This document shows positions 1,676 through 22,100 of a stretch of DNA of 23,013 bases, in pieces. Numbering within the stretch: position 1 is the stretch's first letter; each line of letters starts with the position of its first letter. The position numbers were made by a program, and so were the translations under genes. The notes beneath the pieces were generated by a model, which did not search any database, was not told where the DNA came from, and saw only the letters and a list, made by a program, of their open reading frames with translations. The DNA is from a virus. Location: the IMG/VR virus record IMGVR_UViG_3300009332_000028, positions 1 through 23,013 of that record; one strand, 5' to 3'.

Positions 1676-4600
1676 GTGAGTAAATTAGTAGAAGCAATCA
1701 TTGAACCGTTCCTTACAACAGAAACAATCAAGAAAGTTGGAGATAAGTATGTTGTTTATCCAAAATCTGGTGGTGATCGTTTAGGAACTCATGATACAAA
1801 GGAAAAAGCATTAGCGCAACTCCGTGCAATTGAAGCAAGTAAGAATGAAAATCTTGAAGAGCAGAAAAAAATCAAAAAAGTTATCTTTTGCTACGGGGGA
1901 CGTTTTCAGCCATTCGGGCCTCATCATAAAGGTGTATACGATTATTTGGTGAAGAAATTTGGAAAGGATAGTGTATATATTACAACGTCTGGAATCATGA
2001 AATTCCCACGACATCCAATGAGCTTCAAAGAAAAAGTTACTCATATGGTTAAAATGGGTGTACCTAAGAATAGAATTGTACAGGAGAGAACACCGTATAT
2101 TGCAGCAAATGCATTAGATAAATACGATCCAGAAACAACAGCTGTTGTGTATATTTTTGGTGCTAAGGATGCTGGAAGATTAACGAGCGAGAAATATTTT
2201 GAAGATTACAAAAAGAATAAAGGAAATTTAAAAGGATACAAAGATGTTGGCTATATTTTAACAGCACCACATGTTTCTGTAAGGGTTAGGGGTAAGGAAG
2301 TCAGTGGAACAGTGATGAGACAGTTATTGGGCTCATCAAAAATTGATGATGATGTAAGAAAAAAACTATTCAAGCAAGCTTTCGGATATTTCAATGAAAA
2401 AATCTTCAATATAATGGTAAATAAGTTCAAAAAAATTGTTGAATCGATTGGAACTGGCTATCCAGATGAAGAAGATATGAAAAAAATCAAAAAAAGAGTC
2501 AAAAAAGAACGAAATCGAACAGATTCCAATGAAAAATATCAATATCATCCAATAAATGAAGCAAAGGTTCATCAATCTGCAGGAATAATTCCATTTATCA
2601 GGGAAAATAATGAAATAAAGTTGCTTCTTTTGAAAAATAATTATGGTTGGGGCTTTCCAAAAGGCCATTTAGAGGAAAATGAGAAGGCGTTAGAAGCAGC
2701 ATTCAGAGAAACAAGGGAAGAAACGGGACTGAAAATCAAGAAAGTACTTCCAGGATTCAAACATATATCAAAATATTTAGTAAAAGTAGATTACGAAGCG
2801 GGAGAAAAGCTAGATAAACCAGAAATGAAATTTGTTTTGTATTTTCTCGGTGAATCTCCAACAAAAAACGTAAAATTATCATTTGAGCATAGTGCTTATA
2901 AATGGGTGACAGCAAAAGAAGCCAAAAAATTAGTGAAATTTGCAGATACGAAAAAAGCTATTGATAAAGTTATGTCAGTTTTACAAAAAACAGAAGATAT
3001 CAATATTCCAATTAACGTGGGAGATGTGATTTTAGGTGGTCGTTTCAAAAATAAGAAAATTACAGTAAAATCAATTAGCTGGAATGAAAAGGGTGATGCA
3101 CTAATTAACGGAAAGCCATTAATGAAATATAGGCTTATTACAAAAGAAAATATTGCAGAGTTTATTGGTAGAATTGGTGAAGAAACTATACTTGAACTCA
3201 TCAGAGAAATATCGTATGGAGTATATGGAGCATCTGGAATTGTCGATGACGGTCCAAGATATTGGTGGGGAAATCAAAAAAGCTATAGGATTAATACAGA
3301 AAAGGAAGCCGCAAAGTTAGGATGGGACGTTGTTGATTATATTGTACCAGAAGAAGAATTTCCAGAACATGATACAGGATATCCTAAAGGACCAACAGGA
3401 ACTGTAACATATTTTCCAGCTGGTAAAGTTGGAACAAAAGCTGGTACGGGAATTATGGCAGATAAACGCGGAAACGAAGCATGGATGTTATGGGCCAAAA
3501 ATGTTAACAGAGCAATTGAGCAATTAGGATTTGAACTTGTTGATTATCTAGGAGCTGATAATTCAATAACTGATACAAAAGATGAGCCTATTAGTGATGA
3601 CGATCCAAGAAAGGAAGCACCTGAAGATACAGAACCTCGTACAGAAGATGAGCAGCACGATGATATGGAACCTGTTGAGGAAGCTGCATTTTCAAAGGAT
3701 TGGTGGGCAAACCAATTACTAACAGATATTGAATATTCAGCTGATCCACTAGATACTAGAATTCTATTACAATGTGGTGGAGCAGCCGGGCACATGTCTC
3801 ACCCTTTTGATGATTGGGAGTTAACATTTAAGGATTTTAAGAATATTATTAATTTTGGGTTGTCTGGACAGTTAAATAGAGAAGACAATGTTAGTGAAAA
3901 AATGGACGGTCAGAATATAATGGTGAGCTGGAGAGATGGGAAACTTATATCTGCGCGAAATAAGGGACACATCAAGAATGCAGGAAAAAATGCTCTTGAT
4001 GTTAAAGGTATTATGTCAAAATTTAAGGATCGTGGAGATATTAGAGATGCTTTTGTATTTGCTGTAAAGGATCTTCAATCTGCTATATCTAAATTATCAG
4101 ATAAACAAAGACAAAAAATATTTATGGAAGGAAAAGCTTTCATGAATCTTGAAATAATGTGGCCAAAATCCGCAAATGTTATTGATTATGATATAGTAGC
4201 ATTAGTATTTCATGGAGCTATAGAATATAATGATGAGGGAACGCCTATTGGAATCGTTAAAGGAAGCGCGAGAATACTTGAGGGTATGATTCGACAGATA
4301 AATCAACATATACAAAAACACTTTAAGATTGAAAAGCCGAGATTTCTTGATATACCAAAACATCAAGATTTCGGAAAGAGAAAAAAATATTATTTTAACA
4401 AATTACAAAAACTTCAGAAACAATATGCCTTAAATGATAACGATAGCTTTGGTTTATATCATCAAAGATTTTGGGAAGAGTTTATTTACAATTCAGCGAA
4501 GCAACATAAATACAAAATACCATATAACGTTTTAGTTGGATTAACAAAAAGATGGGCATTTTTCGATAAATCATATAAGATACCACGGCTGAAAAAAGAT

Positions 4601-5005
4601 GTTGATAATGAAAAGTTTCTTGATTGGGCTTTAACGTTTAACAAAACTGATCATGAAAAATACGTTAAACAAAATATGTTTCCTTTTGAAACTTTATTCT
4701 TTGAATTGGGTGCTGATATATTGAAAAATGTAAGTGGATTTATTGCATCCAATCCCGATAAAGCTGTACAGAAAATGAAGCAACAGCTTGATAAAGTTGT
4801 AACTGATATTAGGGCAGGAGGAGATATTTCAAAGATACAAAAAATGAAGACTCAGCTCGAAAAATTACAGGCTATCGGGGGGGCAGAAGCTATTGTACCG
4901 ACAGAGGGATTAGTATTCAAGTATAAAGGAAATATGTATAAGTTTACTGGGACCTTTGCTCCGATAAATCAACTTTTAGGAATGTTAAAATTTAGTGGCA
5001 GATAA
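1676..5005 (+). CDS. Multidomain enzyme: HxGH nucleotidyltransferase + Ap4A-hydrolase-like Nudix + ligase-like nucleotidyltransferase
   Basis: 1109 residues from a GTG start with GGAG upstream. In order: a short leader MSKLVEAIIE; a 20-56 module (KVGDKYVVYPKSGG...LGTH) seen in other phage proteins; a cytidylyltransferase/NMNAT-type fold at about 66-240, with GRFQPF at 75-80, then GPHH where HxGH is usual, and an ISxTxxR-like VSGTVMR at 209-215. At about 296-435 is a Nudix domain with the full box (G330, E336, R344-E345, E348-E349, G351). Its WGFPKGH entry and later FEHSAYKW match asymmetric Ap4A hydrolases. At 447-488 is VGDVILGGRFKNKKI, unassigned; 510-627 is unassigned and 630-670 is an acidic linker. 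The C-terminal part resembles covalent nucleotidyltransferases/ligases: EKMDG at 741-745 (K742 the AMP-accepting candidate), NLEIMW at 824-829, EGLVFKYKG at 1077-1085, YKFTG at 1088-1092. I infer nucleotide, NAD-type or RNA-end processing. The domain calls are firm for Nudix, good for the N-terminal enzyme and moderate for ligase. Confidence 0.85.
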   Translation: MSKLVEAIIEPFLTTETIKKVGDKYVVYPKSGGDRLGTHDTKEKALAQLRAIEASKNENLEEQKKIKKVIFCYGGRFQPFGPHHKGVYDYLVKKFGKDSVYITTSGIMKFPRHPMSFKEKVTHMVKMGVPKNRIVQERTPYIAANALDKYDPETTAVVYIFGAKDAGRLTSEKYFEDYKKNKGNLKGYKDVGYILTAPHVSVRVRGKEVSGTVMRQLLGSSKIDDDVRKKLFKQAFGYFNEKIFNIMVNKFKKIVESIGTGYPDEEDMKKIKKRVKKERNRTDSNEKYQYHPINEAKVHQSAGIIPFIRENNEIKLLLLKNNYGWGFPKGHLEENEKALEAAFRETREETGLKIKKVLPGFKHISKYLVKVDYEAGEKLDKPEMKFVLYFLGESPTKNVKLSFEHSAYKWVTAKEAKKLVKFADTKKAIDKVMSVLQKTEDINIPINVGDVILGGRFKNKKITVKSISWNEKGDALINGKPLMKYRLITKENIAEFIGRIGEETILELIREISYGVYGASGIVDDGPRYWWGNQKSYRINTEKEAAKLGWDVVDYIVPEEEFPEHDTGYPKGPTGTVTYFPAGKVGTKAGTGIMADKRGNEAWMLWAKNVNRAIEQLGFELVDYLGADNSITDTKDEPISDDDPRKEAPEDTEPRTEDEQHDDMEPVEEAAFSKDWWANQLLTDIEYSADPLDTRILLQCGGAAGHMSHPFDDWELTFKDFKNIINFGLSGQLNREDNVSEKMDGQNIMVSWRDGKLISARNKGHIKNAGKNALDVKGIMSKFKDRGDIRDAFVFAVKDLQSAISKLSDKQRQKIFMEGKAFMNLEIMWPKSANVIDYDIVALVFHGAIEYNDEGTPIGIVKGSARILEGMIRQINQHIQKHFKIEKPRFLDIPKHQDFGKRKKYYFNKLQKLQKQYALNDNDSFGLYHQRFWEEFIYNSAKQHKYKIPYNVLVGLTKRWAFFDKSYKIPRLKKDVDNEKFLDWALTFNKTDHEKYVKQNMFPFETLFFELGADILKNVSGFIASNPDKAVQKMKQQLDKVVTDIRAGGDISKIQKMKTQLEKLQAIGGAEAIVPTEGLVFKYKGNMYKFTGTFAPINQLLGMLKFSGR

Positions 5006-5047: not shown

Positions 5048-5530
5048 ATGGGAAAGAACATTGAAAAAATACAATCTATAGTTGATGGAAAATATCAACG
5101 TAAAATTCAAGTTGGATATCAACCAAAATCGATTCGCGAAGAGGGCGAAACATGGACTGATGATCATGGTTCAGAATGGATTTGGAAAAACGGATCAAGA
5201 AAGCGAATTAACGTCCGTCCTGGAGTAGGATTTGATAGATGCTCTGATTGTGAGCGACTTATTTTGAAACAGCGTGATCAGGATACATATAATCGATTTG
5301 GACGATGCTTTTATTGTCAGATTAACTTTGAAGCTAATCTAAAGATAGAAGGAAAATGGAGTGACTGGGTCGCTGATCAGGAAAAGAAGAGATTTGAGAG
5401 TATTGAAAGGGAAGTTCAGTCAATATTGAAGAACATGAAGGAAGATGCTGATCAAGCTTTTGATAGATCAGTTGTAAATGCTATGGGTAACGAAAATGTG
5501 TCAATGCAAGTGAAAAAAATGAAAGAATGA
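5048..5530 (+). CDS. Zinc-ribbon protein upstream of terminase
   Basis: A 160-residue protein with one CxxC...CxxC pair, CSDC and CFYC about 25 residues apart (roughly residues 62-90), which should bind one zinc. Before it is an aromatic segment (EGETWTDDHGSEWIWKNG) and after it a charged helical tail with WSDWVADQEKKRFE. The same arrangement (W..D..G..W..KNG, then a zinc ribbon, then FE..LK..GKW) is familiar to me from proteins encoded near terminase in aquatic T4-like phages, where it has no assigned role. It lies just upstream of the terminase cluster, but I see no small-terminase signature, so I do not call it gp16. AAGAGGT upstream supports the start. The gene ends in an ATGA overlap region with the next reading frame. 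Confidence 0.7.
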   Translation: MGKNIEKIQSIVDGKYQRKIQVGYQPKSIREEGETWTDDHGSEWIWKNGSRKRINVRPGVGFDRCSDCERLILKQRDQDTYNRFGRCFYCQINFEANLKIEGKWSDWVADQEKKRFESIEREVQSILKNMKEDADQAFDRSVVNAMGNENVSMQVKKMKE

Positions 5531-6163: not shown

Positions 6164-7759
6164 ATGACACAATCATCAAATATTAAGCAAGTAATCAAGC
6201 GCGAATATATTCAATGTGCACGTGATCCTATACACTTTCTTAAAAAATATTGCATAATTCAACACCCACAGAAAGGAAAGATTAAGTTTGAACTATATGA
6301 CTTCCAGGAGAAGATAGTAGAGGAATTTCAGAATAATAGTTATAACATTATTCTAAAGTCACGTCAGTTAGGTATATCTACATTAATGGCTGGATATTCA
6401 TTATGGTTATTATTATTCCACAATGACAAGAATATTCTGGTCATCGCAACATCAAAGGATACAGCAAAGAATTTAGTGACAAAGGTTAGAGTTATGTTTC
6501 AGGGACTACCTTCATGGCTAAAAGCAAAAGTAGAAGAAGACAATAAACTATCAATGCGACTTACAAATGGCTCACAGATTAAGGCAATCGCTTCAAATGA
6601 ATCAGCTGGTCGCTCCGAAGCGTTGTCGTTATTAATTCTCGATGAATGCGCATTTATTGATAGAATCTCTGAGATCTGGGCAGCGGCTCAACAGACACTC
6701 GCCACCGGAGGAGATTGTATTGTAACATCGACACCAAATGGGGTTGGTGGCTGGTTCCACAAGACATGGCAGAGAGCTATTGATGGAGAAAATAATTTCA
6801 GCTTTACGGAATTACCGTGGTATCTTCATCCAGAGAGAGATCAGGCGTGGAGAGATGAACAGGATGTTATTCTTGGTCCAACAATGGCCGCCCAGGAGTG
6901 CGATGCCAGCTTTTTGTCATCTGGAAATTCAGTAGTCGATCCGCAAATACTTCAATGGTATAAGGAAAACCAAGTAAAAGATCCTGTAGAGAGATTAGGA
7001 ATTGACAATAATTTATGGGTATGGGAACAACCAGATTACTCAAAGGAATATATAGTCGTTGCCGACGTCGCGAGAGGAGATGGAACAGATTATTCAGCAG
7101 CTCAGATTTTTGAAGTAGAAAGTATCAAACAGGTAGCTGAATATAAGGGACAATTATCGACTACTGATTATGGAAATTTTCTAATAGAGATATCAACAAA
7201 ATATAACGATGCATTATTAATTATAGAAAATAATAATGTTGGCTGGGCAACAATTCAAACAGTTATTGATAGAAACTATAAGAATTTATTCTATCAATCA
7301 AAGGATTTACAATATGTCGATACTGAACATCAAATGCAAACTAATCGATATAGGACTCAAGATAGAAATATGCTTCCTGGCTTTACAACATCAGCAAAAT
7401 CAAGGCCACTCATTGTCGCAAAAATGGAAGAATATACGAGGGAGAAATTAGTAGAATTAAGATCAGCGAGACTAGTAGAAGAATTATTTGTTTTCATTTA
7501 TCAGAATTCAAGAGCAGAAGCAATGAGAGGATATAATGATGATCTAGTATTATCATTCGCAATCGCTTTATGGATTAGAGATACAGCATTAAGATTGAAA
7601 ACAGAAAAAGATAATATGCAAAGAGCTCTGATGGATTCTGTACTAAATAGTAATAAAGGATATGATGCGGGATTTTCAAAAGGAAAAGTAAAACCCAAAG
7701 ATAGTGAATGGGAAATCGATATCAGGGGAAAGAAGGAAGACCTTTCATGGCTCCTATAA
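6164..7759 (+). CDS. 17: Terminase large subunit (T4 gp17 family)
   Basis: 531 residues. This is the ATPase-nuclease motor that cuts concatemeric DNA and pumps it through the portal. The ATPase part has a deviant Walker A, SRQLGIST (66-73), with the basic residues at its start (K65, R67) instead of the usual GK(T/S) lysine. Walker B with catalytic Glu is LLILDE (156-161), and the coupling motif is TSTPNG (188-193). The RNase H-like nuclease part begins with VVADVARGDGTDYS (about 298-311, D301 metal ligand), then LLIIENN (about 352-358) and a late YNDDLVLSFAIALW motif. Length is a little below T4 gp17 (610), as in many divergent T4-like phages. The ribosome site before the ATG is weak, and the gene starts 6 bases after the upstream stop. 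Confidence 0.95.
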   Translation: MTQSSNIKQVIKREYIQCARDPIHFLKKYCIIQHPQKGKIKFELYDFQEKIVEEFQNNSYNIILKSRQLGISTLMAGYSLWLLLFHNDKNILVIATSKDTAKNLVTKVRVMFQGLPSWLKAKVEEDNKLSMRLTNGSQIKAIASNESAGRSEALSLLILDECAFIDRISEIWAAAQQTLATGGDCIVTSTPNGVGGWFHKTWQRAIDGENNFSFTELPWYLHPERDQAWRDEQDVILGPTMAAQECDASFLSSGNSVVDPQILQWYKENQVKDPVERLGIDNNLWVWEQPDYSKEYIVVADVARGDGTDYSAAQIFEVESIKQVAEYKGQLSTTDYGNFLIEISTKYNDALLIIENNNVGWATIQTVIDRNYKNLFYQSKDLQYVDTEHQMQTNRYRTQDRNMLPGFTTSAKSRPLIVAKMEEYTREKLVELRSARLVEELFVFIYQNSRAEAMRGYNDDLVLSFAIALWIRDTALRLKTEKDNMQRALMDSVLNSNKGYDAGFSKGKVKPKDSEWEIDIRGKKEDLSWLL

Positions 7760-7785: not shown

Positions 7786-10700
7786 ATGGCAGAACAAAAC
7801 AATAACTTATTCAATAGACTAAAACGATTATTCGGAAGTAGCGTAGTTATCAGAAAAACTCGCGATAATCAATTAGTAGTAAAAGATGTTGATTTTACTC
7901 AAATGGGACTAACTACTAATTTCATTGATAGGTATACGAGAGTTTCCTCAGGAGCAGGATGGGGAAGAAAATACTCAGCTCAGCAAAACGCAAAGAATTC
8001 ATATGAAATAGCGAGGAATGAATTATTTAGAGATTTTGAGCAAATGGATTCAGATCCTATTCTCTCTTCAGCACTTGATATCTACTCAGATGAGAGTAAT
8101 ATTACAAACGTTGAGGGATCAGTCCTTTCGATTAAGACAGATAATGCTAAATTACATAGGATTTTACATAATTTATTTTTTGATATTCTTAATATCGAAT
8201 TCAATTTATGGTCTTGGCTTAGAAATTTAACAAAATACGGAGATTTTTTCTTATTATTAGACATCGCTGATAAATATGGTATCCTTAGTGTTAAACCATT
8301 ATCACCATATGATGTTATACGATTAGAAGATCATGATCCTTCAGACCCAAAATTAGTTCAATATGAAATAGCAGGAGCATCTGATCGAAATATAACTCCA
8401 CAGGGCGAGAAAAAACTATATGAAAATTATGAAATAGCTCATTTTAGATTATTATCCGATTCTAATTTTCTTCCTTATGGTAAGAGCATGTTAGAAGGAG
8501 CCAGAAAAGTATGGAAACAACTAACACTTATGGAAGATGCTATGCTTATACATCGTATCATGAGAGCTCCAGAAAAAAGAATATTCAAAATCGATATTGG
8601 GAATATTCCACCAAATGAAGTTGATAATTACATGCAAAAAATTATTAATAGGATGAAAAAAATTCCTGTTATTGATCAAACAACAGGAGAATTCAATTTA
8701 CGATATAATGTTGAGCCAATTGCGTGGTATTCTAAAATTCCGCTAGTAGACGGGAGAACTATTACTATTAAGGATCTAGCTAAAGAGCATGAACAAGGTA
8801 AGAAAAATTATGTATATTCAGTTGATCGAGATAATAATAACTCTATTAGAGCGGGAGAGGTAGTTTGGTGTGGATTAACAAAAAAGAATGCGAATATTGT
8901 AAGAGTTACAATAAATGATAATAGTTATGTGGATTTTGAGCCCGAGCATCCTATAATGCTCAGTGACGGTGAATATATATTAGCGAAAAATATTCAACCA
9001 GGAGATTCACTAATGCCATTCTATACAAATATTAGTAGCGAAAAGAATATTGGGGGATATGAAAAAGTCTTTAACCCGGAAACAAATTCTTATAATTTTA
9101 CTCACCGTGTTGTAGCGAATCAGTATAATATTGATAATTATATTAATACATCAAATGTTATTCATCACTCTGATTTTAATAAATTAAATAACATACCTGA
9201 AAATCTAACCTGTACAATGACTTTTGAAGAGTATATACGATATCATGGTAATAACGCCTCTGAAATGTGGAACTCAGAGACTGAAAGTGAACGAGTGAGA
9301 ATAAATCACTCAGTTAAGAGTGTCGAATTCTTAACAGAGAGGTGTGATGTTTATTGTATGGAGGTTAAGGATTTTCATAATTTCGCTATTGATTCTCATG
9401 GAGGTGTGACTAGAGATGGCTTTTTTGTAAAAAATTCAGTGTTAGAAGATTACTATATGCCAGTTCGAGGAGGTGATAGCGGAACTGAGATTGATACTCT
9501 ACCTGGGCTATCAAATGATAATGCAATTGATGATATTGAATATTTAAGAAATAAAATGATGGCGGCGCTTAAAATTCCAAAGGCGTTTTTAGGATACGAA
9601 GAGGGGCTATCTGGCGGAAAATGCCTTCACCCGGATACAAAAATACCACTATTAGATGGAAAAACAAAAACTATTAAAGAAATATCGGATGAATTTGCCA
9701 CAAATAGCGATCCAGATTGGTGGGTATACTCATATGATGTAAAAACAGATAGTATTATCCCAGCGAAAATTAAAATGGCAGAGCAGACTCGTAAAGACGC
9801 CCAATTGGTTCGGGTATATCTTGATAATGATACCCATATAGATTGCACTCCGGATCATAATTTTGTTCTAAAGGGTGGAGATGAAAAACAAGCTCAACAG
9901 CTGGCCTGTGGGGATAGTCTACAAGCGGTTTATCGCCAAAATAAAAAAATAGCTAATAATAGTAATGAATATGAACAAATATATCAACCAAATAACCATA
10001 AAGTTGTTAGAGTTGAATGGTTAAACGAAAGAGTTGATACATATAACATGGAAGTGGATAACGAGAATCATAACTATCTTCTAAGTACAGGTATCATTAT
10101 AAAAAACAGCACGCTTGCAGCAGAAGATGTTCGCTTTGCTAGGACAATTGAGCGTTTACAGAAAATTGTTGTGGCTGAACTCGAAAAGATCGCAATTATT
10201 CATTTATATACTCAGGGATTCAGCGGTGTGGAATTATTGAATTTTGATCTTCGATTAACAAATCCATCAATGATACATGAGCAAGAGAAACTTGAATTGT
10301 TAAATCAGCAAGTTGATATCGCACAGAGTGCAATAGAAAATAAGCTATTTTCACAGAATTGGATATATGAAAATATATTCGACCTAAATGAACATCAGAA
10401 GAAAAAACTGATGAGTGAGATAGCTGCAGATTCAAAACAGAAATTCAGGCATACACAAATTGAAGATGAGGGTAATGATCCTTTTGAAACTGGAGAAAAA
10501 GTCGATGACGATGATGAGAATGGAGCATCATCACTGAAGGGTGATTGGGGAGGATCAGAGAAAGATCCACAATATTCACATCATGATTTTGGAAACGCTA
10601 CATCGAAGGATAGGAAAGATGCTACAAAATATGAGCGTGAACACTTTGGAAAACGAGAATTTAAAGGTGGTAGTCCATTATATCTAGGAAAAGGATCAAC

Positions 10701-10812
10701 TATTGTAAAGTCAGAAGGATTGTTAGATCAGCTAAAGAAAAAATTCAAAAATCAAGAAAAGAAAAGCGGACTTTTAAGCGAAGATTTACTTTTTGTTGAA
10801 GAGGAGGCATAA
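7786..10812 (+). CDS. 20: Portal protein (T4 gp20 family) interrupted by two inteins
   Basis: 1008 codons. About 400 belong to two in-frame protein-splicing elements, leaving an extein of about 608 residues, a normal length for divergent T4-like portals. The portal forms the dodecameric ring at the special head vertex through which DNA is packaged and leaves, and it nucleates head assembly. Extein landmarks shared with T4 gp20 are LEDAM-like HRIMRAPEKRIFKIDIGN, LEDYYMPVRGG, GTEIDTLPG and the later TLAAEDVRFARTIERLQ. A charged C-terminal tail with SSLKGDWGGSEKDPQYSHHDFG follows. GAGGT sits upstream of the ATG at 7786. Both inteins sit in conserved segments of the portal, so splicing must work for head assembly to proceed. 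In-frame reading is intact throughout. Confidence 0.95.
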   Translation: MAEQNNNLFNRLKRLFGSSVVIRKTRDNQLVVKDVDFTQMGLTTNFIDRYTRVSSGAGWGRKYSAQQNAKNSYEIARNELFRDFEQMDSDPILSSALDIYSDESNITNVEGSVLSIKTDNAKLHRILHNLFFDILNIEFNLWSWLRNLTKYGDFFLLLDIADKYGILSVKPLSPYDVIRLEDHDPSDPKLVQYEIAGASDRNITPQGEKKLYENYEIAHFRLLSDSNFLPYGKSMLEGARKVWKQLTLMEDAMLIHRIMRAPEKRIFKIDIGNIPPNEVDNYMQKIINRMKKIPVIDQTTGEFNLRYNVEPIAWYSKIPLVDGRTITIKDLAKEHEQGKKNYVYSVDRDNNNSIRAGEVVWCGLTKKNANIVRVTINDNSYVDFEPEHPIMLSDGEYILAKNIQPGDSLMPFYTNISSEKNIGGYEKVFNPETNSYNFTHRVVANQYNIDNYINTSNVIHHSDFNKLNNIPENLTCTMTFEEYIRYHGNNASEMWNSETESERVRINHSVKSVEFLTERCDVYCMEVKDFHNFAIDSHGGVTRDGFFVKNSVLEDYYMPVRGGDSGTEIDTLPGLSNDNAIDDIEYLRNKMMAALKIPKAFLGYEEGLSGGKCLHPDTKIPLLDGKTKTIKEISDEFATNSDPDWWVYSYDVKTDSIIPAKIKMAEQTRKDAQLVRVYLDNDTHIDCTPDHNFVLKGGDEKQAQQLACGDSLQAVYRQNKKIANNSNEYEQIYQPNNHKVVRVEWLNERVDTYNMEVDNENHNYLLSTGIIIKNSTLAAEDVRFARTIERLQKIVVAELEKIAIIHLYTQGFSGVELLNFDLRLTNPSMIHEQEKLELLNQQVDIAQSAIENKLFSQNWIYENIFDLNEHQKKKLMSEIAADSKQKFRHTQIEDEGNDPFETGEKVDDDDENGASSLKGDWGGSEKDPQYSHHDFGNATSKDRKDATKYEREHFGKREFKGGSPLYLGKGSTIVKSEGLLDQLKKKFKNQEKKSGLLSEDLLFVEEEA
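8716..9435 (+). mobile_element. Intein 1 in gp20, with HNH homing endonuclease
   Basis: Lies between extein RYN and SVLEDYY of the portal (protein residues about 311-550). The C-side is clear: block F-like DVYCMEVKDFHNFAI, then GGVTRDGFFVKN with Ser as +1 residue. The N-side resembles block A (SKIPLVDGRTITIKDL), but there is no Cys or Ser where residue 1 should be: the candidates are P311 or A313, so the left boundary is uncertain by several codons. Block B reads EPEHPIML, with the usual Thr replaced by Glu. Between the splicing blocks is an HNH_3-type domain, HRVV then HHSDFNKLNNIPENL (H460, H461) then YHGNN. The penultimate residue is Lys, not His. I infer an active or recently active mobile intein with a non-standard first step. 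Confidence 0.85.
9622..10107 (+). mobile_element. Intein 2 in gp20, 162-residue mini-intein
   Basis: Lies between extein GLSGGK and STLAAEDVRF (protein residues 613-774). It begins with Cys1 in CLHPDTKIPLLDG (block A); block B is HIDCTPDHNFVL with the standard Thr-x-x-His. Block F is RVDTYNMEVDNENHNYLL and block G is TGIIIKN followed by Ser+1. It has no room for an endonuclease and none is seen, so it is a mini-intein that cannot home on its own. As in intein 1, the penultimate residue is Lys instead of the usual His. Boundaries are firm on both sides because the flanking extein rejoins to a typical T4-like portal segment. Confidence 0.92.
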
Positions 10813-12664: not shown

Positions 12665-13276
12665 ATGGATAATCGCAAAATACTAGTAGATTACATTCCA
12701 TTTAATGTAACACCAAAACAAATTAATGAATCGTTATCAAAGAACAATGGAAAATTAGTAGTTTCTGGAGTATTACAACGTGCAGAAGCAAAAAATCAGA
12801 ATGGACGGGTTTATCCCCGTGAAACTTTAATGCGAGAAGCAAAGAAATATTCCGGAGTTCAGATCAAAGAACGTAGAGCATTGGGGGAACTTGATCATCC
12901 TGATTCATCTGTTGTCAATCTTCAAAACGCATCACATAATATTCTTGAAATGCATTGGAGCGGAAATGATTTGGTCGGTACTGTTGAAGTTTTAGGAACT
13001 CCGTCTGGAAATATTTTGAAAGAGCTATTTAAATCTGGGATTAAGCTCGGAATATCGAGTCGGGGATTGGGTTCAGTTAAGGAAATCGCTGAGGATAATA
13101 CAGTTGAAGTTCAGCCCGACTTCGAATTAATTGCCTTCGATTTCGTCAGCAACCCAAGTACACATGGAGCTTTCATGGCACCACTTAAAGAGGGCAAAGA
13201 GCATCAACAGGGCAGGACTTGTGGAAAGTGGTGTAAAGCTGAATCAATTATTAATTCTATTATGCACGGAGAATAA
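12665..13276 (+). CDS. 21: Prohead maturation serine protease (T4 gp21 family)
   Basis: 203 residues from the ATG at 12665; an upstream in-frame ATG at 12590 would overlap the previous gene by 74 bases and lacks a ribosome site, whereas GAGGGGGAAT precedes 12665. The fold markers are NGRVYPRETL, GELDHP with the catalytic His (H78), and GISSRGLGS with the catalytic Ser (S131/S132), followed by FELIAFDFVSNPS. This is the assemblin-like protease that digests the scaffold and trims gp23 and internal proteins inside the prohead. T4 gp21 cuts after (I/L)xE. Matching sites occur at the end of the small-protein leaders here and in gp23 (IKE61). A Cys pair near the C-terminus (CGKWC) is unusual and unexplained. 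Confidence 0.92.
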   Translation: MDNRKILVDYIPFNVTPKQINESLSKNNGKLVVSGVLQRAEAKNQNGRVYPRETLMREAKKYSGVQIKERRALGELDHPDSSVVNLQNASHNILEMHWSGNDLVGTVEVLGTPSGNILKELFKSGIKLGISSRGLGSVKEIAEDNTVEVQPDFELIAFDFVSNPSTHGAFMAPLKEGKEHQQGRTCGKWCKAESIINSIMHGE

Positions 13277-15491: not shown

Positions 15492-15581
15492 ATGCCAGAA
15501 CTACTAATATACAGTTTACTCATTTGGCAAATAATATTAGGAATTTGGTTACTCTTAAAAAAGTTACAGGAGATACAATAA
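15492..15581 (+). CDS. 29-residue single-pass membrane peptide upstream of actin-like gene
   Basis: The frame ATG 15492 to TAA 15579-15581 encodes 29 residues that are almost all one hydrophobic helix, YSLLIWQIILGIWLLLKKL, with a basic end. Its stop overlaps the actin-like start as TAATG, so the two are probably coupled. The best evidence that it is real is similarity to the membrane segment of the gene at 16735, on the other side of the actin-like gene: about 13 of 22 positions are identical, including YS, WQ and LGI. The ribosome site is poor (AGGA about 14 bases upstream), so it may depend on translation of the preceding gene. The role is unknown; a membrane anchor or small holin-like peptide is possible. 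Confidence 0.6.
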   Translation: MPELLIYSLLIWQIILGIWLLLKKLQEIQ

Positions 15582-16603
15582 TGGCAAAAGGTCTTGACTG
15601 TGGTACAAGTTACTACATAGCAGCTACAGAAGATACATTAAAGAAACAAAGAAATGTATTCTTAACTGTTGATGGTGATGCTCAACAAGTAAAAAGAATG
15701 TTGAAAAGACAAAAGATTCCATTTGTGGAAAAAGCAGGTAAAGTTCATATCGTTGGACAACATGCTTTTAACTACGCACAGATATTTCAGTCTGCTAAAT
15801 TGAGACGTCCAATGAAATCTGGATTATTGAATCCAGACGAGAGAGATTCATTGCCAATTCTCAACGCAATCATCGGTGAATTACTCGGAAAGGCAGAAAA
15901 AGACGAAATATGCGTATATTGTGTTCCAGCAAAGCCTATTGATCAGAATCGAAGAGTTGATTATCATGAAGATGTATTGAAAACAATTATCGAGGGGTAT
16001 GGGTATAAAGCAAAAAAGATTGAGGAGGGTGTAGCTTTGGCATATGATTCACTACTTGATAATAATTTAACTGGAATTGCAATCTCAATGGGAGCTGGAC
16101 TCTGCAATATTTGTGTGATGTACGCTGGAATTACAGCAGTATCGTTTTCAGTAACGCGCGGTGGAGATTGGGTGGACACTAATGTTAGTATGGACACAGG
16201 TGTTCCAATTGCAAAAGTTCAAAACATAAAAGAAACTTCAAATTTATTAGACTTGAAAGCGTCAGCGATAAACGATATTTACCAGGAAGAATCAGACGAG
16301 TATAATGTATTACACGCAATACGGAGTTATTATTCAGCGCTTATTAATTATTTGTTTGTAAATTTAGTTAATCAATTTAATAATACTAAGAATGTTCCTA
16401 ATTTTCAAAGCTCAATACCTATAGTTTTTGGTGGGGGAACTTGTCTTGTTAAAGGTTTTTTAGATATAGTAAATGAACAATTTGATCAGGAAAATTTCCC
16501 TATTCCAGTTTCTAATATTATACTTGTTAATGACGCTCATTATGCAGTTGCCCGTGGATGTCTTAATGAAGCACTGTTAATTCAGGAAGAATTTAGTGAA
16601 TAA
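15581..16603 (+). CDS. Actin-like ATPase (ParM/MreB/Hsp70 fold)
   Basis: 340 residues from the ATG at 15581, chosen over the in-frame ATG at 15524 because AGGAG lies 11 bases before it and homology to the fold starts here. Phosphate-1 loop is GLDCGTSYY (4-12). The connecting helix is EEGVALAYDSLLD (148-160, E149 at the usual catalytic Glu). The phosphate-2 region is ISMGAGLCNI (168-177), where the usual Asp of DxGxG is Ser169. The adenosine motif is VFGGGTCLVKGF (282-293). The length and motif order fit a filament-forming actin homologue rather than a kinase. Known phage actins act in DNA positioning; this one lies inside a head-gene cluster, flanked by related membrane proteins. The fold call is strong; polymerisation and role are inferred. 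Confidence 0.85.
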   Translation: MAKGLDCGTSYYIAATEDTLKKQRNVFLTVDGDAQQVKRMLKRQKIPFVEKAGKVHIVGQHAFNYAQIFQSAKLRRPMKSGLLNPDERDSLPILNAIIGELLGKAEKDEICVYCVPAKPIDQNRRVDYHEDVLKTIIEGYGYKAKKIEEGVALAYDSLLDNNLTGIAISMGAGLCNICVMYAGITAVSFSVTRGGDWVDTNVSMDTGVPIAKVQNIKETSNLLDLKASAINDIYQEESDEYNVLHAIRSYYSALINYLFVNLVNQFNNTKNVPNFQSSIPIVFGGGTCLVKGFLDIVNEQFDQENFPIPVSNIILVNDAHYAVARGCLNEALLIQEEFSE

Positions 16604-20405: not shown

Positions 20406-22100
20406 ATGTCAAAATATATTAATGAAGCGCTACTTGGAACAGCTGGATATCAAAAACAGCGAGACCAAGCAAAAGCGCTTACTGAAAAATGGGACAAAAC
20501 TGGTCTACTTGATGGTCTTGAAGGTGACTTCGATCGAGGTGGAATGGCACAACTTCTTGAAAACCAGGCACGTGAGCTTATTAAAGAAGCTTCCTCAACA
20601 AGCCCTTCAGCTGGTTCAGCCGGCGCATATAAGGGTGATGAGGAATGGTCTGGTGTAGCACTTCCATTAGTTCGTAGAATTTTTGGTGAGATTGCTGCTC
20701 AAGAATTTGTTTCTGTTCAACCAATGAATTTACCATCAGGTCTTGTATTCTATCTTGATTTCCAATATGGTTCGAACCGTATGGGATTTGATGATAGTAA
20801 ATCAATTCATGGTAAAACTGGTAAATACAGTCCTTCTGGTTCATCTGCACCTTACGGTGAAGACAGTTATGCTGGCGGTTTCTATGGCGCAGGTCGTTAT
20901 GGATACACAATGGCAACTGGTTCAGATACAACACTTGATATCGCAAGTGCAGCACAAGCTACATGGAAAGACATCAATTTCAATTCTGAATTAAGTTCAT
21001 CTGTAAATGCTGGTGAAATCTTTAAAGTTACTAGTGCTATTACAGCAACTAATGTAGATAAGCTTGCTATTAGAGCAGCTGTTATCGCATCTGGTTCAAT
21101 TAGTGCAGGAAATCCAAATGGTGCCGATATTGGTGCTGGAGATGCAATTAACAGAGTATTTCCAGAACTATTCTCGATTGATGGTACAGACGGTGTAGCA
21201 GGAACACTTACATGGTTCGCTTCTGCCTCATCAGCTGATGATTTCATTGACGAATCAATGACTCTACATTATCCAAAATACACTACAGAAGCAGTTCGTG
21301 GTGACTTTGAAGATACTACAGGTGATGCTACATCAGATTCTTTACAGATTCCGCAAGTAGATATCGAATTGAAATCTAGAGCAATTGTTGCTAAAACCAG
21401 AAAGCTGAAAGCTGTATGGACACCTGAATTAGCTCAAGACTTGAATGCTTATCATTCTGTTGACGGTGAAGCTGAATTGACATCAATGTTAACTGAATAC
21501 GTATCAATGGAAATCGATCTTGAAATCCTCGATATGCTTATCAGTGATGCTCAAACAGTTGACTATTGGTCAGCAAAAATTGGTAACGAATATAACGCAG
21601 CAAATAATGCATTTAGCACATCTGCTGGCGGAACATTCACAGGTACCAAATTCGAATGGTGGCAGACACTTATTGGTAAAGTTCAGAAAGTATCCAATGA
21701 AATTCATAAATTAACACTGCGTGGTGGAGCAAACTTTGTTGTTTGTGGCCCAACTGTAGCTACAATTCTTGAATCTCTACCAGGATATATGGCTGATACT
21801 GATGGTGATAAACAACAGTTCGCTATGGGCGTACAGAAAATCGGTGGAATTTCAAACCGCTGGACAGTTTACAAGAATCCGTATATGACTGAAAATACAA
21901 TTCTTGTTGGTTTCCGCGGAAGTAACTTCCTTGAAACTGGTGCTGTATATGCTCCATATGTACCACTTATCATGACACCTCTTGTATACGATCCTAACGA
22001 CTTTACTCCACGTAAAGGCGTAATGACACGATATGCCAAGAAAATGGTTCGACCAGAATTTTACGGAAAAATCTATGTAGATGGATTAGATCTGGTATAA
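20406..22100 (+). CDS. 23: Major capsid protein (T4 gp23 family)
   Basis: 564 residues, HK97-fold major capsid protein of the T4 family. Landmarks are WSGVALPLVRRIFGEIAAQ, FVSVQPMNLPSGLVFYLDFQ, ELKSRAIVAKTRKLKAVWTPE, LTRGGANFVVCGP-like RGGANFVVCGPTVATIL, and the C-terminal APYVPLIMTP...FTPRKGVMTRYAKKMVRPEF. The first 61 residues form a propeptide ending LIKE, so gp21 cleavage is predicted between E61 and A62, close to the position in T4 (65). This supports use of the (I/L)xE rule for the small-protein leaders. AGGAG upstream. Expected to be the most abundant virion protein; it is followed by the only strong terminator in the window. Residues 120-300 include a Gly/Ser/Ala-rich insertion. Confidence 0.97.
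   Translation: MSKYINEALLGTAGYQKQRDQAKALTEKWDKTGLLDGLEGDFDRGGMAQLLENQARELIKEASSTSPSAGSAGAYKGDEEWSGVALPLVRRIFGEIAAQEFVSVQPMNLPSGLVFYLDFQYGSNRMGFDDSKSIHGKTGKYSPSGSSAPYGEDSYAGGFYGAGRYGYTMATGSDTTLDIASAAQATWKDINFNSELSSSVNAGEIFKVTSAITATNVDKLAIRAAVIASGSISAGNPNGADIGAGDAINRVFPELFSIDGTDGVAGTLTWFASASSADDFIDESMTLHYPKYTTEAVRGDFEDTTGDATSDSLQIPQVDIELKSRAIVAKTRKLKAVWTPELAQDLNAYHSVDGEAELTSMLTEYVSMEIDLEILDMLISDAQTVDYWSAKIGNEYNAANNAFSTSAGGTFTGTKFEWWQTLIGKVQKVSNEIHKLTLRGGANFVVCGPTVATILESLPGYMADTDGDKQQFAMGVQKIGGISNRWTVYKNPYMTENTILVGFRGSNFLETGAVYAPYVPLIMTPLVYDPNDFTPRKGVMTRYAKKMVRPEFYGKIYVDGLDLV

Follow-up and report, generated by a model that had tools for sequence, protein, structure and literature searches.

What a virus gains by joining a nucleotidyltransferase, a Nudix hydrolase and a ligase-like domain in one polypeptide is the question raised by the gene at nucleotides 1676–5005 of the virus record IMGVR_UViG_3300009332_000028. 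The window, that is, the whole stretch of 23,013 bases that was analysed, carries T4-type head genes. The gene was found to be an uninterrupted open reading frame (ORF) on the plus strand, as are all of its features given below, with a GTG start, no internal stops and GGAG, a ribosome-binding-like site, directly 5' of the start. It encodes a modular NMNAT-like nucleotidyltransferase/Nudix/SH3-like/RNA-ligase-like polyprotein of 1109 amino acids. The first-pass annotation had described a three-domain fusion of a nucleotidyltransferase, a Nudix domain of the diadenosine tetraphosphate (Ap4A) hydrolase type and a ligase-like domain, and profile searches and AlphaFold2 (AF2) modeling supported all three. 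The motifs on which it relied (GRFQPF, VSGTVMR, WGFPKGH with the Nudix box, EKMDG, EGLVFKYKG, YKFTG and MSKLVEAIIE) were all present. We hold, with moderate confidence, that the protein is a modular polyprotein for the end repair of RNA or tRNA in a marine T4-like virus, possibly packaged in the head and injected, and that tRNAs cut by host anticodon nucleases are its most likely substrate.

The RNA-ligase-like covalent nucleotidyltransferase domain occupies residues 701–1106 (nucleotides 3776–4993). No significant Pfam, PHROG or PDB-sequence match to this domain was found by profile search, and its likeness to ligases became visible only by structure. The AF2 model, built from a 68-sequence alignment, had a mean local confidence (pLDDT) of 89 and a predicted template modeling score (pTM) of 0.85, and in it the domain has the ligase nucleotide-binding fold that the first-pass annotation had made the test of its proposal. 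The PDB matches of the model were RNA ligases: Foldseek gave E-values of 0.056 and up, and the first 23 rows were all covalent nucleotidyltransferases, nearly all of them RNA ligases. Because these E-values are individually weak, the match rests on the consistency of the hits, the Z-scores and the motifs. With VIA-align 2, the Naegleria RNA ligase (RNL) scored highest (Z 8.8 over 185 residues, 4.1 Å), a value that lies near the level of common arrangements, while the consistency of the family was strong. It was followed by T4 Rnl1 (Z 8.2), the fungal tRNA ligase and trypanosome REL1 (both Z 7.6) and Rnl2 (Z 7.5); DNA ligases and capping enzymes were lower, at Z 5–6.8. No NAD+-dependent ligase, a candidate whose NMN could be recycled by the NMNAT-like domain, was found among the structural matches listed. 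A cytidyltransferase-like protein of S-PM2, matched to the ligase domain in BFVD, was dropped, as no ligase-domain homologue turned up when the entire S-PM2 genome was searched with the profile.

The strand order of the model fits motifs I, III, IIIa, IV and V. Motif I, EKMDG (residues 741–745, nucleotides 3896–3910), contains K742, the candidate adenylylated lysine, and motif III contains the glutamate E826 of FMNLEIMWP (nucleotides 4151–4153). The first-pass annotation had picked out K742, and the residue does align with K99 of T4 Rnl1 as E826 does with E159; both were in register when hhalign was run against a purpose-built Rnl1 alignment, where P was 0.013, a suggestive value only (0.28 for the control profile). 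Judged from the fold and this register, K742 would lie in the ATP pocket. A helical insertion of about 200 amino acids between motifs IIIa and IV (nucleotides 4265–4891) was seen in the secondary structure of the model and was skipped in the structural alignments. Motif IV, EGLVFKY (within EGLVFKYKG, 1077–1085), and motif V, YKFTG (1088–1092, with K1089 and T1091), span nucleotides 4904–4951. Across the 68 aligned sequences, the first residue of EKMDG, K742, D744, G745, E826, E1077, G1078 and K1089 do not vary. An equally invariant threonine, T1091, stands where T4 Rnl1 has the second motif-V lysine (K242), and the domain was therefore filed as ligase-like and not as an established Rnl family. 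In the model, the chain stops just past motif V, without an OB domain or motif VI.

About two dozen relatives of the 1109-residue protein were found in a first scan, with best-segment identities of 48–72%, and a profile scan gave at least 587 candidate relatives in marine metaviromes. An identical protein is present in IMG/VR contig 3300007511_000224, possibly from the same data set, and many further contigs encode relatives that are 51–72% identical to it. The domain architecture was studied in 109 ORFs with the ligase domain (cited here by their L numbers), 50 of which were complete. The nucleotidyltransferase and the ligase-like domain form a constant core, present in 47 of the 50 complete ORFs; the three exceptions were the ligase-like domain on its own in LR756500 (L003), a fragment due to a frameshift (L071) and an ORF with a divergent nucleotidyltransferase (L110). 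The order of the two core domains was reversed in L109 (4285–7242), whose contig had been binned as a Pelagibacteraceae metagenome-assembled genome from Lake Baikal.

Exchangeable modules sit between or before the two core domains. A P-loop kinase module was found in 17 ORFs; its closest solved relative is the L-seryl-tRNA(Sec) kinase PSTK (1.3e-5), and it also matches a polynucleotide kinase PHROG. A pol-beta nucleotidyltransferase module with the GSISNYNWSKFSDVDLHL motif (GS...DVD type) was found in 12 ORFs. L107 contained a CCA-adding enzyme (PolyA_pol, 1.5e-29) with an RNA-binding domain, L058 and L059 an HD tail of this module, and L067 a DEDDh exonuclease. The Nudix module was present in few ORFs, namely the window (L005), L026, L054, L057 and L071. 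The first-pass annotation had suggested a cycle of adenylyl transfer, clean-up and end-joining; since the Nudix domain is rare and is replaced among the relatives by a kinase, a CCA-adding enzyme, a pol-beta nucleotidyltransferase or an exonuclease, the fusion does not follow one fixed three-step cycle.

The same parts also occur as neighbouring genes just upstream of the ORF: the kinase in L008, L022, L023, L029, L047, L099 and Pelagibacter phage HTVC008M, the CCA enzyme in L020 and L022, and the Nudix gene in L015, L031, L035, L040, L044 and L045. In HTVC008M, the barrel described below, the kinase and the cytidyltransferase are the consecutive genes gp128–gp130. The occurrence of the same parts both fused and adjacent is our main evidence for a shared pathway, and the swapping of RNA-end-repair enzymes among the relatives points to a repair kit for RNA, probably tRNA. 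Phages are known to pair RNA ligases with polynucleotide kinase, CCA enzymes and RlaP, and the combination of kinase, CCA enzyme, pol-beta nucleotidyltransferase and RNA ligase is a published phage RNA-repair enzyme set (PMC7824862). Some modules stood apart from this set. A recurrent module, ECIAxxKKFGxDIVIGKNRDRNY...VNSAL, in L049 (2586–3479) and L083 (3288–5000) looked like an Ntn-type hydrolase by eye and had no Pfam match; a ParB-like stretch was seen by eye in L083 and L077.

The second core domain, an NMNAT-like nucleotidyltransferase of the HIGH superfamily, was located by profile searches at residues ~67–251 (nucleotides 1874–2428). The literal HxGH motif expected by the first-pass annotation is absent from the window protein: behind GRFQPF (residues 75–80), the position reads GPHH (81–84, nucleotides 1916–1927). 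Among 61 relatives, the majority form was GxHH (46/61), the remaining 15/61 had HxGH, and only the last histidine was constant. Membership of the superfamily is supported by the fold and profile evidence and by the ISxTxxR-type motif VSGTVMR (209–215, nucleotides 2300–2320), and the window protein has no literal HxGH/TxGH signature. Pfam CTP_transf_like was sub-threshold in the window protein (0.02) and ranged from 1.3e-5 to, at best, 2e-10 in the relatives, being clear in 24 of 45. When a 14-sequence profile of the domain was compared with solved structures, the archaeal NMNAT was at the top (3e-6). Hidden Markov model matches of the domain were found in HTVC008M gp130 (5e-42), S-PM2 (1e-19) and S-CREM2 (2.8e-14).

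The Nudix domain (residues 299–431, nucleotides 2570–2968) is of the asymmetric Ap4A-hydrolase type (Pfam 5.3e-16; human asymmetric Ap4A hydrolase in the PDB, 1.5e-13). Its Nudix box, GHLEENEKALEAAFRETREETG (residues 330–351, nucleotides 2663–2728), is complete and canonical; with WGFPKGH, it runs from residue 325. The full box and the nearest likeness place it with the asymmetric Ap4A hydrolases, and NadM models scored far under their cut-offs. Between this domain and the ligase lie a small SH3/Tudor-like barrel, NVGD...GRFKNKK (residues ~440–493, nucleotides 2993–3154; Z 4.5 to Tudor domains in the AF2 model), and a divergent middle region with a DDGP motif (residues 500–690, nucleotides 3173–3745). 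The AF2 model of residues 438–700 had a pLDDT of 59, and the barrel was its only reliable part; the barrel also stands alone as HTVC008M gp128. Near the N-terminus, a small segment, KVGDKYVVYPKSGG...AIEASKN (residues 15–58, nucleotides 1718–1849), matched phrog_3684 (5e-13).

The first-pass annotation had also suggested that the protein might be targeted to the head and injected, for which the support found is circumstantial. Residues 1–15 (MSKLVEAIIE..., nucleotides 1676–1720) are a candidate capsid-targeting propeptide. The short pattern MNKLVEEIIKPxLxE, with variants, was found in 34 of 47 distinct N-termini and in 3 of 1063 internal windows, and it stays the same ahead of different modules. 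In T4, capsid-targeting propeptides have 10–19 residues and are cut after a glutamate (PMC9026906), and a gp21-type protease (Peptidase_S77, about 12665–13276) is encoded in the same window as the conserved tag. In 84 of 85 loci, a terminase was found 0.4–5.8 kb downstream; a portal was found in 78. Microcystis phage Mel-JY01, a cultured relative (WWT39297.1), keeps the same gene order. The cyanophage protein S-CREM2 gp154, which carries a virion annotation based on mass spectrometry, with the authors' caution about co-purification (PMC10665884), is homologous to the nucleotidyltransferase domain (profile E 2.8e-14 in a single-target search), and its N-terminus is MKNFSSFLTE. The packaging of the window protein in the head is plausible. 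Hydrophobic, possibly membrane-spanning stretches were seen in a module of L099 (4083–5000) and could aid the membrane passage of an injected protein.

The other T4-type head genes of the window are the terminase (6164–7759), a Portal_T4 gene with two inteins (7786–10812; Pfam Intein_splicing and NCBIfam intein_Nterm, two stretches each) and the Gp23 major capsid protein (20406–22100). Seven small ORFs (12064, 14109, 14906, 15230, 17040, 17284 and 18120) have the near-identical N-terminus MK[IL]TK[ST]KLK[EQ][IM]IREE ahead of unrelated bodies and are, from their sequences, candidates for a family of internal proteins targeted to the capsid. An actin-like protein (Pfam Volactin, 1.8e-74) is encoded at 15524–16603, within the head gene cluster. 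Directly downstream of the polyprotein gene, a small paired-cysteine ORF (5048–5530) is kept in 89 of 106 loci and has no family match. No RNA structure of note was found in the start codon region of the polyprotein gene.

The end-repair function could proceed as follows. The short N-terminal tag would bring the protein into the prohead, where the gp21-type protease would remove it, and the protein would enter the cell along with the DNA. There, the C-terminal domain, which has the fold and most of the motifs, would move AMP from ATP to K742 and seal 5'-phosphate and 3'-OH RNA ends in the manner of T4 Rnl1 and Rnl2. The HIGH-type domain is predicted from its fold to transfer an adenylyl group, by which it might restore NAD+ from NMN or activate an end. 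Ligase-AMP can form Ap4A as a by-product, and the Nudix domain may clear Ap4A from this source as well as other Ap4A or Np4-type ends. In the relatives, a kinase, CCA-adding enzyme, pol-beta nucleotidyltransferase or exonuclease would replace or supplement the Nudix domain, each fitting one step of end repair.

Several observations weigh against this account. The kinase, CCA and pol-beta modules are absent from the window itself, no kinase module was found in the window's own record, which consists of the 23-kb window only, and no tRNA genes were found there. The Foldseek E-values are individually weak (0.06 or worse), the threonine at the second motif-V lysine is invariant, the tag pattern was drawn from the same data that were used for its counts, and the enzymatic activity and virion presence of the family are predicted from sequence and model. 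Some relatives also carry ParB-like and putative Zn_protease domains, which are unrelated to RNA repair. These domains would suit a protein that is mainly an ejected internal head protein, with enzyme domains acting as accessory effectors of unrelated function and without coordinated RNA repair, and polyvalent proteins combine disparate activities by definition (PMC5512222). We consider such a generic role improbable, given the constant nucleotidyltransferase–ligase core and the recurrence of RNA-end enzymes, not of random effectors, among the modules.

The main rival is a nucleotide or NAD-signal enzyme. Its NMNAT-like and Nudix domains would control NAD+, Ap4A or another nucleotide alarm signal, and the domain with the ligase fold, a covalent nucleotidyltransferase, would modify a target other than an RNA end. 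NMNAT–Nudix fusions such as NatV/NadM do manage NAD+ (PMC9503650), the nucleotidyltransferase profile resembles NMNAT, the Nudix domain is of the Ap4A-hydrolase type, and the invariant threonine suggests altered chemistry. However, the Nudix domain is not of the NadM/ADPRase type and occurs in only a handful of relatives, while the kinase, CCA and pol-beta modules recur, and NAD metabolism offers no obvious use for a CCA-adding enzyme or a tRNA-type kinase; we regard this explanation as unlikely, though ahead of the other alternatives. The least likely is a packaged enzyme whose ligase-like domain works on DNA and which repairs or joins the ends of the phage genome as it enters. The fold is also that of DNA ligases, and L067 has an exonuclease module, but RNA ligases outrank DNA ligases in both structure comparisons, neither an OB domain nor motif VI follows motif V, and modules of the CCA-adding and tRNA-kinase-like types speak for RNA.

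If the end-repair account is right, an exchangeable single polyprotein that is abundant in marine metaviromes and has a ligase-like core not described before would be a new counter to RNA-cleaving immunity. It is possible, and we propose it only tentatively, that the heads of marine T4-like viruses are filled in advance with a modular machine for tRNA and RNA repair that has a new family of RNA ligases as its base. Entering with the DNA, such a machine would counter host anticodon-nuclease defence before phage gene expression, and viruses would exchange modules to fit different kinds of RNA damage. A packaged polyprotein would act at time zero. The variable modules would predict which RNA damage each virus expects. 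The analysis also assigns a fold to a domain that had gone unseen under the annotation "cytidyltransferase". T4 is the main source of knowledge on phage RNA repair, and its repair enzymes come from separate genes; no packaged RNA ligase or RNA ligase/cytidylyltransferase fusion was found in the phage literature searched.

The window domain shares with T4 Rnl1, Rnl2 and Naegleria RNL the covalent nucleotidyltransferase fold, KxDG, the motif III glutamate, the EG of motif IV and the first motif-V lysine. It differs from them in the insertion of about 200 residues between motifs IIIa and IV, the threonine in motif V and a conserved HxxHPFDD segment before motif I; domains of the window type always occur in large fusions or tagged, and have no significant sequence match to Rnl-type ligases. 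The cytidyltransferases of cyanophage and Pelagibacter phage (phrog_395, phrog_3041) have a homologous HIGH-type domain, and one member, S-CREM2 gp154, was detected in virions, whereas profile searches of HTVC008M gp130 and S-PM2 gave no ligase domain. The comparison with NatV made in the first-pass annotation holds for the architecture, since bifunctional NadM/NatV proteins also have a HIGH-type nucleotidyltransferase followed by a Nudix domain, and fails for the Nudix domain, which is Ap4A-hydrolase-like and not NadM-like; the window protein also has the extra ligase domain and GPHH in place of HxGH. T4 internal head proteins and Alt have in common with it a short N-terminal segment ending near a glutamate, a head gene context and a gp21-type protease in the genome (PMC9026906), whereas the window protein is much larger and its packaging and cleavage are putative. 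None of the polyvalent hub domains MPTase, ArdC, ART, SNF2 and MuF was found in the window protein, and RNA ligases appear only in the 2H passage of the searched text of the polyvalent-protein paper (PMC5512222). Like the polyvalent proteins described there (Iyer et al., 2017), the window protein is a large phage protein with several unrelated enzymatic domains, a variable architecture and a place beside virion genes; the core of its own family is an RNA-ligase-like domain joined to a HIGH-type nucleotidyltransferase.

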